DNA of 64,000 nt from Bacillota bacterium (GCA_012838955.1 DUOH01000044.1:1-64000); one strand, 5' to 3'. Numbered from the stretch's first letter, positions 25,456 through 29,963 are shown. The notes: generated by a model not told the origin, from the sequence alone. Numbers and translations are program-made.

Positions 25456-25529
25456 CCGCGTCTGTTTTGGAAAAGAACGGCGGCAAAAAAGTATATGCTT
25501 TTCAGCCTCGTTACAAATCTTCAAAGCCC

Positions 25530-25557
25530 ATGACATAATAAACAGTTATAATATAAT
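25530..25557 (+). promoter_or_regulatory. Promoter of the first PII-like gene
   Basis: ATGACA (25530-25535), 16-base spacer, perfect TATAAT (25552-25557). The leader to the ATG at 25662 is about 100 bases. Confidence 0.65.
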
Positions 25558-25661: not shown

Positions 25662-26033
25662 ATGAACGAAGAGAAGATTCAAGCCCTATTTATTATAATT
25701 AATGATCCGGATAAATTGGGAGATGTCTTGCAGGTTCTATTGGATTGCGAGATCAGGGGCGCCACCATTATGGAGACACAGGGAATGGCTAAAGTGCTTT
25801 CTGATCGCATACCGATCTTCTTCGGTCTCCGCGGTTTACTCGAGGATGAACATGAAATCAACAAGACTATCTTTGCTCTCTCGAAACATCCGGAAAAAAT
25901 TGACCAGGCCATTACCAAATTATCCGAGATGTTCCATAGTTTTGAGGAGGCCTGTACCGGAATGATGTTTGTAGTACCGGTAGTAAAAGCAATCGGTCTA
26001 GGACAGAAATTTCCGCAGAACATTATAGAGTAA
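25662..26033 (+). CDS. PII-like signalling protein, copy 1
   Basis: A 123-residue protein from ATG 25662 (GAGGAGT upstream). The layout is that of a PII ferredoxin-like fold: beta 'IQALFIIIN', helix 'PDKLGDVLQVLLDCEIRG', beta 'ATIMETQG', a long T-loop-like region (about residues 40-66, 'RIPIFFGLRGLLEDEHEI'), then 'NKTIFALS', a second helix and a hydrophobic C-terminus. The standard GlnB residues (Tyr51, the PROSITE motifs) are missing, so it is not GlnB or GlnK. A CPA2 antiporter gene follows 130 bases downstream, and the pair is repeated at 27728-29399. I infer that it senses a nucleotide or ion and controls the antiporter. Confidence 0.75.
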   Translation: MNEEKIQALFIIINDPDKLGDVLQVLLDCEIRGATIMETQGMAKVLSDRIPIFFGLRGLLEDEHEINKTIFALSKHPEKIDQAITKLSEMFHSFEEACTGMMFVVPVVKAIGLGQKFPQNIIE

Positions 26034-26163
26034 AGAAGTTTTCTTGGATGGTCAGGCTACGTTCTCACTGTGGCAAAATATCTTTGTAAAACACAGATTA
26101 TTAAGGGTCAGACCGGTTTATCCATGAATCTGTTGAATTGTATATGGAATGGGAGTCTTACAG

Positions 26164-27348
26164 ATGAGTATCGTATTTTATTTGGGTTTTATTCTATTGG
26201 CTGGGTTTGGCGCTGGTAAGTTTATTAACTATCTGAAACTACCGGCTGTAACCGGCTATTTGTTAATCGGTTTATTGGTGGGACCTTCTTTGTTGGGTTT
26301 GGTTTCCGCTGAGACTATGGAGTTATTGGCGCCAATTAACTCCATCGCCTTGAGCATAATCGCCTTCTTAATCGGTGGAGAATTTTCCTTCAAACAATTA
26401 AAAAAATGCGGGAAGAGTGCAATACTAATCGCCATCTTTGAGGTACTGGGAGCTTTTACTTTTGTCACTCTGACCTTGCACTTCCTGGTTGGCGTAGAGC
26501 TGTATGCAGCCTTGATTTTTGGTGCTATTTCCTCTGCTACAGCCCCGGCTGCTACCATTATGGTGCTTCGGGAATATAAAGCCAAGGGACCTCTGACCGA
26601 TACTCTCCTGACGGTGGTCGCTATTGACGATGCCTTGTGTTTAATCGCTTACGGCCTGGCCACTGCAGTCGCAAAAGTAATCTCCAGGAAAGTGACAGGG
26701 GGAATGGCTGCCATGATCGCTGCGCCCATCTGGGAATTACTGGGATCGCTTCTCTTGGGTACGGTTTTTGCCATTGTGCTGATGACGGTTTCCCGCCGCT
26801 TTCGGGAACACTATGATAAATTGGTAGTGACCTTGGGGATGATCTTTGCTGTGGCCGGGATCGCCGAGTTTCTCCACCTTTCTTCTTTATTGGCTTGTAT
26901 GGCCATGGGTTGTGCGGCGGTGAATCTTATGCCTAAGGAAACCGACCGGGTGTTTAGGATTATAAAATCCATTGATACCCCAATCTATGTTTTGTTCTTC
27001 GTTGCCGCTGGCGCCAACTTGCACCTTGGAGTCTTGGCCAAGGTCGGCCTGGTTGGGGTGGCTTATATCATTAGCCGTGTAATTGGGAAGATGTTAGGCG
27101 CATCCTTCGGCGCCAAGCTCGGCAAAGCCCCACTAACTGTTCGGAAGTACTTGGGACTTGGTTTGATTCCCCAGGCAGGGGTGGCTATTGGTGTTACCTT
27201 ACTGGTTCAGCAAGACTTCCCGGAGATTGCTAGTTTGATCACTACCGTAATCTTAGGCTCTGTTGTAGTATACGAGATTATTGGACCCTTCTGCTCTAAG
27301 CTAGCGATTACAAAAGCTGGTGAAGTGGGTAAAGCCAGCTGCGCTTAA
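26164..27348 (+). CDS. CPA2-type cation/proton antiporter, copy 1
   Basis: A 394-residue integral membrane protein with about 12-13 hydrophobic segments. ATG 26164 is chosen because copy 2 starts with the same MSIV sequence and GGGAG lies eight bases upstream; ATG 26149 is also in frame. 'AIDDALCLI' near residue 155 supplies the paired acidic residues that bind the ion in NapA/KefB relatives, and 'SSATAPAATIMVL' precedes it. No C-terminal TrkA-N domain is present, so regulation by a separate protein, such as the adjacent PII-like protein, is plausible. Substrate (Na+ or K+ against H+) is unknown. Confidence 0.85.
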   Translation: MSIVFYLGFILLAGFGAGKFINYLKLPAVTGYLLIGLLVGPSLLGLVSAETMELLAPINSIALSIIAFLIGGEFSFKQLKKCGKSAILIAIFEVLGAFTFVTLTLHFLVGVELYAALIFGAISSATAPAATIMVLREYKAKGPLTDTLLTVVAIDDALCLIAYGLATAVAKVISRKVTGGMAAMIAAPIWELLGSLLLGTVFAIVLMTVSRRFREHYDKLVVTLGMIFAVAGIAEFLHLSSLLACMAMGCAAVNLMPKETDRVFRIIKSIDTPIYVLFFVAAGANLHLGVLAKVGLVGVAYIISRVIGKMLGASFGAKLGKAPLTVRKYLGLGLIPQAGVAIGVTLLVQQDFPEIASLITTVILGSVVVYEIIGPFCSKLAITKAGEVGKASCA

Positions 27349-27727
27349 AAATACTCTTTTTCCAAGGAAGGCAGCAAGAGACCCTTGATTATTACTGCTA
27401 ACGGTGTAGTAGATTCCTAATTTCATCATAGTCTGCGGAAGATAGGCCATTTGGTAAGGATTTTCAATATATTTACCAAAAAATAAAGCAAATGACATAA
27501 TTATTAGTTAAAATAAAGATGAGTGTATCTCTTACTAGACATTTACTATCCAAGCTTCAACCACACCACATTTGTATAGACAATTGTTAATCGTAATCGG
27601 GTGTATATAGTTCAGGCCTAATCCTCTTATAGTTCAAATTTGCTTATAGATCATTATAAAGGTTTTGTATGTGCGTCTAGATGCGTGACTGCAAAACTTT
27701 TTTATTATGAGAGGGGGGTTACATGTA
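27349..27727 (+). other. Intergenic region between the two PII/antiporter modules
   Basis: About 380 AT-rich bases with no gene I can support. It holds the promoter of the second module at 27633-27660. No clear terminator is visible after copy 1. Confidence 0.4.
27633..27660 (+). promoter_or_regulatory. Putative promoter of the second PII-like gene
   Basis: TTCAAA (27633-27638), 16-base spacer, TATAAA (27655-27660). Each module therefore seems to have its own promoter. Confidence 0.45.
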
Positions 27728-28099
27728 TTGAAAGAGGAAGACCTACAAGCCCTATTTGTAATCATTAACGAACCCGACAAACTCGAGAGTGTTTTGGAGA
27801 TTCTATTAGATTGTGAAATCAGGGGCGCTACGATTTTGGACACCCAAGGGATGGCAAAGGTCCTCTCCAACCGTATACCCGTTTATCTCGGGTTACGTAG
27901 TTTGATCGGAGATGAACATGAGCGGAATAAGACTATATTTGCCTTATCTAAACACCCGGACAAGATCGATCAGGCCATTGAAAGAATATCCGACATGTTC
28001 CATTCTTTTGAAAGAGCTTGCACAGGGATGATGTTTGTGGTTCCGGTTTTAAAAGCGGTCGGTTTCGGACAGAAATTTTCTCAAGACACAATCGAATAG
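27728..28099 (+). CDS. PII-like signalling protein, copy 2
   Basis: Start set at TTG 27728, about nine bases after GAGGGGGG, which gives 123 residues, exactly the length of copy 1. By eye, 92 of 123 positions are identical to copy 1. The conserved blocks are 'LLDCEIRGATI', 'TQGMAKVLS', 'NKTIFALSKHP' and 'ACTGMMFVVPV'; most differences fall in the T-loop-like region (residues 48-66). That pattern suggests the two proteins share a ligand but contact different partners. The cognate antiporter starts 118 bases downstream. Confidence 0.75.
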   Translation: MKEEDLQALFVIINEPDKLESVLEILLDCEIRGATILDTQGMAKVLSNRIPVYLGLRSLIGDEHERNKTIFALSKHPDKIDQAIERISDMFHSFERACTGMMFVVPVLKAVGFGQKFSQDTIE

Positions 28100-28217
28100 C
28101 ACAATGTTACTACTGCGGTTGGAAGCTGATGATTGCGCGTTGACTGAGAATGTCTCTTCTTTTTTAGGGGATTCGGTTGGAAATGAAGATTATGAAATAT
28201 GAAATAGGAGTCATGAA

Positions 28218-29399
28218 ATGAGTATTGTATTACTTTTGGGCCTAATTCTAGTGACCGGTTTTGCTGGCGGTAGACTGATTAGTCTGTTTAAACTACCGGC
28301 TGTCACCGGGTATTTAATAGTTGGATTGCTGCTAGGGCCTTCTGTTATGGGAATGATTTCTTTTGATACTATTGAGCAATTGGCTCCGATTAATACTATA
28401 GCATTAAGTATAATCGCTTTTTTAATCGGCGGTGAGTTCTCCTTTAAACTCCTGAAAAGATGTGGGAAAAGCGCTATATTAATTGCTATCTTTGAGGTGC
28501 TGGGCGCCTTAACCTTTGTTACTGGAATTCTCCATTTTCTTTTGGGGATGAAAGTATCTACCGCTCTGATTTTGGGGGCTATTTCTTCCGCCACGGCCCC
28601 GGCCGCCACTATTATGGTGCTTCGGGAGTACAAGGCTAAAGGGCCTTTGACGGATAACCTACTAGCGGTAGTTGCCATTGACGACGCTCTTTGTCTTATT
28701 GTTTTCGGCATAGTCATGTCAAGCGTGAAAGCGATCGTCGGACAAATGGGTGGAAGTGTGGCAGCGATGTTGATCGTACCCATCTGGGAACTGCTCGGGT
28801 CGGTTCTGTTAGGCGGAGTATTTGCCCTTGCCTTCTTGGCCATTTCCCAACGGATCAAGGAGGGATTTGACAAACTCGTTCTAATCTTAGGCGCGGTTTT
28901 TGTTTTAGCTGGTGTTTCCGATCTTTTACACTTATCTTCATTATTGGCTTGTATGGCCATGGGTTGCATAGCGATAAACCTTCTTCCTAGAGAAACCGAC
29001 CGGGTGTTTAAGATCGTTAAATCTATTGATACCCCTATCTATGTTTTGTTTTTTGTCACAGCCGGGGCAAATCTGCATCTTAGTGTTTTGGCAAAAGTCG
29101 GAATAATTGGCGTGGTTTATATTCTGAGTCGGGTGATTGGGAAGATGTTTGGCGCAGCTTTAGGGGCAAAACTCGGAAAGGCCCCGCTTGTCGTACAGAA
29201 GTATCTAGGCTTAGGTTTAGTTCCCCAAGCGGGGATAGCCATTGGTCTTACTCAAATGTTGCAACAGGATCTACCGATGATTGCTGATTTAGTTACCACT
29301 GTGGTCTTGGGTTCTGTAGTAATTCTAGAGATCATCGGCCCCTTCTTTTCTAAAATGGCGATTACAAAAGCTGGTGAAGTGGGAGGAATGACCAAATAG
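28218..29399 (+). CDS. CPA2-type cation/proton antiporter, copy 2
   Basis: A 393-residue paralogue of the gene at 26164, closely similar over its whole length. 'AIDDALCLI', 'SSATAPAATIMVL', 'SSLLACMAMGC' and 'SIDTPIYVLFF' are shared. ATG 28218 follows AGGAGT. It ends with the same 'AITKAGEVG' tail as copy 1. A strong terminator follows at 29473. Together with 27728 it forms the second PII-like/antiporter module. Confidence 0.85.
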   Translation: MSIVLLLGLILVTGFAGGRLISLFKLPAVTGYLIVGLLLGPSVMGMISFDTIEQLAPINTIALSIIAFLIGGEFSFKLLKRCGKSAILIAIFEVLGALTFVTGILHFLLGMKVSTALILGAISSATAPAATIMVLREYKAKGPLTDNLLAVVAIDDALCLIVFGIVMSSVKAIVGQMGGSVAAMLIVPIWELLGSVLLGGVFALAFLAISQRIKEGFDKLVLILGAVFVLAGVSDLLHLSSLLACMAMGCIAINLLPRETDRVFKIVKSIDTPIYVLFFVTAGANLHLSVLAKVGIIGVVYILSRVIGKMFGAALGAKLGKAPLVVQKYLGLGLVPQAGIAIGLTQMLQQDLPMIADLVTTVVLGSVVILEIIGPFFSKMAITKAGEVGGMTK

Positions 29400-29518: not shown

Positions 29519-29544
29519 ATACCGGCCGCAAGTGGGGGGGCCTT

Positions 29545-29963
29545 CTATAGGTAATCATCAACGCGCACCTTATCTCGATACTCACCAGGAGATAAACCCA
29601 TTATTTTCTTGAAGACGATACCGAAATAGTGGCTGTCACGGAAACCAACCCGTCCTGAGATCTCGTAAATCTTCATATTTGTTTCTTTCAGAAGCTGTTT
29701 AGCTTGGTGGATACGGACGCGGTTTAGGTATTCGGTGACATTATTTCCGGTCACTTTTTGAACAGGTGACTTAAGTAACAAGGACTAACATAGACATAGT
29801 CGGCAACAGCGCTTAAGTTTAATTCCGGGTTGGCGAAATCCTCCTCCAGATACCGGCAGGCTTTTTCTACGAAGTTTTTACTAATCTCTTGTTTGTGCCG
29901 TAAATCACAATGATTTATTAGTAAAGGCGAAGCGAAATTCGGTATTTGTCTGTGAGGATGGTT
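29545..29963 (-). pseudogene. AraC/XylS-family regulator remnant, frameshifted and 5' truncated
   Basis: Two minus-strand frames make up one AraC DNA-binding domain. Upstream part (29963-29751): 'NFVEKACRYLEEDF', 'LNLSAVADYVYVSPCYLSHL', ending 'FKK' then TGA. Downstream part (to 29545): 'VTGNNVTEYLNRVRIHQAKQ', 'KIYEISGRVGFRDSHYFGIV', 'GLSPGEYRDKVR'. Adding one base to the A5 run (29755-29759 on the plus strand as T5) would join them. No start codon exists and the upstream frame runs into TAG at 29964, so the sensory part is gone. It is divergent from the GH65 gene, which it probably once controlled. Confidence 0.85.

Follow-up and report, generated by a model that had tools for sequence, protein, structure and literature searches.

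A PII-like protein beside a putative Na+/H+ antiporter: a conserved gene pair, duplicated in tandem in a Bacillota bacterium

Why would a cell keep a PII-like protein next to a cation/proton antiporter, and do so twice in a row? The question is raised by a stretch of 64,000 nucleotides from a Bacillota bacterium (GCA_012838955.1 DUOH01000044.1:1-64000; hereafter the window), which lies within a contig of 174,640 bases in a genome of 2.5 Mb. Hydrogenispora sp. is among the nearest named relatives, and other Bacillota genomes are also near. The window carries two units, or modules, in each of which a PII-like gene is followed by an antiporter gene after a gap of 130 (module 1) or 118 bases (module 2); the coordinates agree with an original prediction, made from the sequence alone, of two such pairs in tandem with the same order and these gaps:

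25662..26033, + strand: PII-like protein of module 1, P0001, 123 residues (Pfam P-II, 25.9 bits, cut-off 25)
26164..27348, + strand: predicted CPA2 Na+/H+ antiporter of module 1, P0002, 394 residues, no RCK domain (PF00999, 120 bits; NapA is the nearest solved structure)
27728..28099, + strand: PII-like protein of module 2, P0003, 123 residues (Pfam P-II, 26.7 bits; 74% identity to P0001)
28218..29399, + strand: predicted CPA2 Na+/H+ antiporter of module 2, P0004, 393 residues (PF00999, 116 bits; 71% identity to P0002)

The answer towards which we lean, by a little, is that the PII-like partner binds its Na+/H+ antiporter and adjusts it, with an adenine nucleotide or dinucleotide as the signal.

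The proteins of the two modules

The link of the 123-residue proteins to the PII family, first proposed from fold pattern and gene order, was borne out by three kinds of search. Both proteins pass the Pfam P-II cut-off (PF00543), each narrowly, and a profile of 22 relatives matched P-II chains in the PDB at 2.4e-5. AlphaFold2 models of the single chain (pLDDT 78 and 79, the latter for P0001) have the strand and helix order of PII, namely a ferredoxin-like fold with a long T-loop between beta2 and beta3. Indeed, rather than an unrelated fold, Foldseek returned SbtB, PII and GlnK as the best matches of the models (E about 1e-5), and PDB 7obj, SbtB with c-di-AMP (cyclic di-AMP), is among the fold matches. 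Membership of the PII superfamily is therefore supported by profiles and predicted models. Known PII proteins are homotrimers with ligand sites between the subunits.

The canonical site residues are a different matter. The position of Q39 is G or A and that of K90 hydrophobic in 83/83 relatives, the position of E62 is F in 78 of the 83, and the C-loop arginines are missing in the PDB profile alignment. No NCBIfam GlnB/GlnK equivalog came near its cut-off. The PII-like subfamily has instead a signature of its own, GATI-x-[DE][ST]-x-GM ... NKTIF ... G-x-MF-x-x-PV, in which GAT (33-35), GM (41-42), P51, N67, T69, F71, G100, F103 and P106 are invariant or nearly so. The c-di-AMP receptor family PstA (PF06153) was not among the Pfam matches of P0001 and P0003, and profile comparison with it by hhalign gave a probability of 4.7%, that is, no detectable sequence relation.

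The antiporters were expected to lack a nucleotide-binding domain of their own and to be of CPA2 type, and both expectations held. PF00999 covers the whole length of P0002 and P0004 and is their sole Pfam match, with no TrkA-N/RCK domain in either; their genes are the only PF00999 genes found in the genome. The solved structures nearest to P0002 are 5bz2 and 4bwz, which we take to be a NapA-type Na+/H+ antiporter. The CPA motif of Masrati et al., used to class CPA antiporters (PMC6181914), falls as follows in P0002:

26536..26547, + strand: CPA motif positions 1-4, A125-T126-A127-P128, in the unwound transmembrane helix 4 (TM4; alignment read with PMC6181914)
26626..26631, + strand: DD motif D155-D156, CPA motif positions 6-7 (alignment)
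27088..27090, + strand: K309, CPA motif position 8, in TM10 (invariant in 20 relatives)

Position 5 is V151, a valine invariant in the aligned region, and since there is no glutamate here both antiporters are, by their sequence, of the CPA2 class. The D-D-K pattern predicts that they are probably electrogenic, and the non-polar positions 1 and 4 of A-T-A-P predict a selectivity of the Na+ type, which is a correlation and not proof of the ion. As the A-T-A-P, D-D and K residues are identical in P0002 and P0004, there is no sign that their ions differ, and the earlier idea of two modules tuned to different ions finds no support. The two proteins share with NapA the family, the DD motif and the TM10 lysine; they differ from it in forming a separate clade, in the A-T-A-P motif of TM4, in P-Q-A-G-V for NapA's P-R-G-E-V and in having a PII-like gene partner.

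How the second module arose can be read from comparison of the copies. P0001 and P0003 share 91 of 123 letters; the count becomes the 92 first reported once M is assigned to both start codons (that of P0003 is TTG, preceded by a AGAGGGGGG ribosome-binding site). Alignment of the antiporters over 375 residues gives 71% identity, and the two units, compared as DNA, are 69% identical over 1677 columns, far beyond chance. Most of the changes between the PII-like copies had been placed in the T-loop-like region. That did not hold, as just 10 of the 32 differences lie there (a change at 33% of residues 37-66, compared with 21-28% in the rest of the protein) and the changes are spread. The tree joins the two units as sisters, moderately supported (92/94), and gives unit 2 the longer branch (0.42 versus 0.10), mostly owing to the antiporter. 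Close relatives carry one unit. The best explanation is a lineage-specific duplication after which the second module diverged faster, and a private pairing of each PII-like protein with its own antiporter is possible. The long branch and the single module of close relatives would also suit a copy that is redundant or in decay, retained for its dosage and lacking a signal of its own; this is somewhat unlikely, as both frames are intact, the CPA motif and the PII signature residues are kept, and the changes are spread and not disruptive.

A conserved pairing with changing antiporters

If the pairing were incidental to these two modules, homologues should mostly be found away from antiporters. 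The opposite was observed. A first scan covered a species-level genome collection from PII-like seed sequences chosen regardless of their neighbours, and 73 of the resulting 79 loci have an antiporter as immediate neighbour in the same orientation. Of the remaining six, L036 and L061 are truncated at a contig end, and L059, L075, L078 and L091 have no such neighbour. A second scan, of 249 genomes of the same phylum, yielded 62 single-domain PII-like proteins and 73 antiporters of the clade. A CPA antiporter adjoins 55 of the 62 (47 of this clade, 8 others), the seven exceptions being two at contig ends and five copies in one family with no transporter beside them. Seen from the other side, 47 of the 73 clade antiporters, including all 24 best-scoring ones, adjoin a PII-like gene. 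Both gene orders occur (PII-first and antiporter-first), the gaps in relatives are often very short or the genes overlap, and conservation of the neighbourhood stops at the antiporter. Members outside the Bacillota include Synergistales and Anaerolineaceae. The pairing of the PII-like protein with an antiporter is thus strongly conserved.

The antiporter itself has changed. PII-like proteins that are 50-56% identical to P0001 adjoin NapA-type antiporters just 20-24% identical to P0002, whereas others merely 36-38% identical to P0001 adjoin antiporters 46% identical to P0002. The full antiporter tree splits one well-supported PII clade, whose rows fall into two distant groups. The claim of partner change is drawn from this contrast and the full tree, since a reduced tree of 23 rows is unrooted, which allows a single branch to have both antiporter groups on the same side. 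The partners extend beyond the CPA families. Indeed, the third PII-domain gene of this genome, on another contig, encodes two domains in 231 residues and lies beside a DUF1538 gene, and such two-domain proteins (220-240 residues) accompany DUF1538 in several genomes:

L001, 1480-3273: two-domain PII-like gene with DUF1538
L029: two-domain PII-like gene with DUF1538
L036, 264-2517: two-domain PII-like gene with DUF1538
L121, 1309-5807: DUF1538/PII-like pair, itself duplicated in tandem

The DUF1538 proteins UmpAB have been shown experimentally to be a Na+(Li+,K+)/H+ antiporter (PMC5484666). They resemble the present system in this activity and in their PII-like neighbour and differ from it in belonging to an unrelated transporter family; PII is unmentioned in that paper. 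In one further case (L021, 2-808) a PII-like gene of the family lies beside a CLC gene (PF00654) on the same strand. As PII-like proteins are found with the CPA2 clade, with NapA-type and with the unrelated DUF1538 antiporters, the constant element is ion antiport.

Other arrangements were also seen. Alkaliphilus serpentinus (L048, 6010-9930) has PII-antiporter-PII followed by a further PII-antiporter pair in a single stretch. Five PII-like genes of family f59 (L115-L119) stand by themselves, with no transporter neighbour, and four of them lie beside glycosidase, pyruvate-dehydrogenase-like or PHP-type genes; their products may act in trans. In a Neomarinimicrobiota genome (L078, 5532-6363) the PII-like gene overlaps what appears by eye, with no family scan, to be a gene for an EIIA-like protein of the phosphotransferase system. 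The EIIA-type protein PtsN is described as inhibiting the antiporter YcgO.

Control of the antiporter and the place of c-di-AMP

In the reading we favour, each unit would be a two-gene module in which a CPA2 Na+/H+ antiporter is under the control of a soluble sensor, the PII-like protein. With an antiporter that has no regulatory domain and an adjacency that is conserved, the PII-like protein as regulatory partner, filling the role of the missing domain, is the most economical reading. By analogy with SbtB-SbtA or GlnK-AmtB it would contact the antiporter directly, altering antiport according to an adenine nucleotide or a cyclic dinucleotide, with c-di-AMP as the preferred candidate. The antiporter would exchange Na+, possibly Li+ and K+ too, for H+, probably electrogenically, in the service of ion, pH and osmotic homeostasis. 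Of this scheme, we infer the physical binding, the direction of the effect, the ligand and the ion.

Known systems offer partial models. SbtA-SbtB is alike in that a PII-like protein without the canonical site is encoded beside a transporter, SbtB being the best fold match of P0001, and in its structure the T-loop reaches into the transporter from the cytoplasmic side (PMC8352866). SbtA differs in being a trimeric Na+/HCO3- symporter; P0001 is 13-14% identical to Synechocystis SbtB and has no C-terminal CGPxGC loop. GlnK-AmtB also places a PII gene beside a transporter gene, but is nitrogen-related and involves a trimeric ammonium channel and a PII protein with the Q39, E62 and K90 lost here. 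PstA shares the PII-like fold, the c-di-AMP biology and its occurrence in Bacillota, whereas it has no detectable sequence relation to the PII-like proteins and is encoded separately in this genome.

The connection with c-di-AMP was found in relatives. Of the 48 antiporter-first operons covered by Rfam scans, 30 (from 29 distinct loci) carry the c-di-AMP riboswitch RF00379 at their 5' end. It lies upstream of the predicted start by no more than 181 nt, and in two cases overlaps that start:

RF00379 loci, part 1: L020/L100, L043, L044, L047, L052, L053, L056, L057, L060, L066-L068
RF00379 loci, part 2: L070-L073, L076, L077, L079, L080, L083, L085, L086, L088
RF00379 loci, part 3: L092, L093, L098, L099, L107

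Three of the 18 antiporter-first operons without it begin at a contig end. In four genomes, the riboswitch of the antiporter-first operon is the only one of its kind. None was found in the 29 PII-first operons, and PII-first is the order in the window. The single RF00379 of the present genome precedes a gene of the sulfate permease family (PF00916; L113, 1501-2612; contig C60, from 25624 onward), and the genome encodes two DAC-domain proteins (c-di-AMP synthases) and one PstA. Elevated c-di-AMP makes the riboswitch terminate transcription and is taken as a sign of no osmotic distress (PMC9337991), a logic that would fit a Na+-extruding transporter needed under stress.

Two further explanations compete on about equal terms, and we consider both rather unlikely. 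According to the first, the PII-like protein is merely co-expressed with the antiporter for a common stress response and acts on other targets without binding it. PII proteins do have many soluble targets, part of the family occurs singly or next to unrelated genes, and a trimer matches a dimer poorly. Yet the pairing outlasts changes of gene order and of antiporter type, which co-expression alone explains poorly, and genes farther out than the antiporter show no conservation. The second is a specific form of the favoured reading, in which the PII-like protein is a c-di-AMP receptor, in place of the RCK_C domain known to bind c-di-AMP in K+/H+ antiporters, and c-di-AMP controls both transcription, through the riboswitch, and transport, through the PII-like subunit. 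It draws on the riboswitch of the antiporter-first operons, on the c-di-AMP machinery of the genome and on the fold match SbtB, which binds AMP, ADP, ATP, cAMP and c-di-AMP (PMC10117731; PDB 7obj). Against it stand the missing sequence relation to PstA, the lack of the riboswitch in operons of the window's order, and the fact that a riboswitch acts on RNA, so that sensing of the same ligand by a protein is not thereby proven. The last alternative, an ordinary GlnB/GlnK nitrogen regulator with an antiporter as accidental neighbour, is very improbable despite profile matches to P-II/GlnK in Pfam and the PDB, as canonical function was rejected on Q39, E62 and K90, changed in essentially all 83 relatives, the C-loop arginines and a near-cut-off NCBIfam equivalog are missing, and the adjacency is far too frequent for accident.

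Several points weigh against direct control of the antiporter by a nucleotide-binding PII-like partner. PII proteins form trimers, whereas antiporters of this superfamily are dimeric, so that the geometry must differ from the trimer-on-trimer complexes of AmtB-GlnK and SbtA-SbtB. The canonical residues for ATP and 2-oxoglutarate (Q39, E62, K90) are gone, and the AlphaFold2 models are of moderate confidence, with low confidence in the T-loop. Some PII-like genes stand alone or beside unrelated genes, and 26 of the 73 clade antiporters in the 249 genomes have no PII gene beside them. Finally, Rfam found no RNA at the window's module, apart from one sub-threshold chance match; with no detectable riboswitch, the link of this module to c-di-AMP is by kinship.

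The surrounding DNA and the meaning of the pair

Three further features lie 5' of the modules:

25530..25557, + strand: promoter-like site ATGACA-16-TATAAT 5' of module 1 (11/12 consensus; consensus match only)
25523..25553, + strand: 31-bp stretch common to both upstream regions, copy 1 (80.6% identity to copy 2)
27485..27515, + strand: 31-bp stretch common to both upstream regions, copy 2 (80.6% identity to copy 1)

Apart from this 31-bp stretch, whose copy 1 overlaps the promoter-like site, intergenic DNA is not conserved between the two units, and alignment revealed no conserved leader 5' of the module in close relatives. A reading of the locus as a defence system was rejected, there being no PADLOC match. 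Downstream of module 2 (29540-29930, - strand), the sequence resembles, by eye, remnants of an AraC-type regulator, with no open frame of at least 80 residues; it is possibly a decayed gene.

In the full-text literature searched, no earlier description of a PII-like/CPA antiporter pair was found; reviews that may cover it fall outside that search, so prior notice is possible. Control of a neighbouring transporter by a PII-type protein is already known; what appears to be new is the other class of transporter and the connection with c-di-AMP, and, relative to the earlier reading of this locus, the riboswitch link and the changes of partner. A bolder proposal, which we make only tentatively, is that the PII-like subfamily is a detachable sensor of c-di-AMP or adenine nucleotides that replaces fused RCK domains and serves mutually unrelated antiporters (two CPA2 clades, DUF1538/UmpAB, perhaps CLC), with c-di-AMP acting twice per operon in many Clostridia, through the riboswitch and the PII-like subunit.

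Collectively, these data suggest that ion balance is controlled in many bacteria by a route that seems not to have been described before. If the favoured reading is true, control of the PII type, familiar from transporters of ammonium and bicarbonate, would also take in the Na+/H+ antiporters by which a cell sets its pH, Na+ and turgor, and many genes that at present carry the label 'nitrogen regulatory protein P-II' would gain a function tied to osmotic signalling by c-di-AMP. How a trimeric sensor serves dimeric, mutually unrelated antiporters would then become directly testable.

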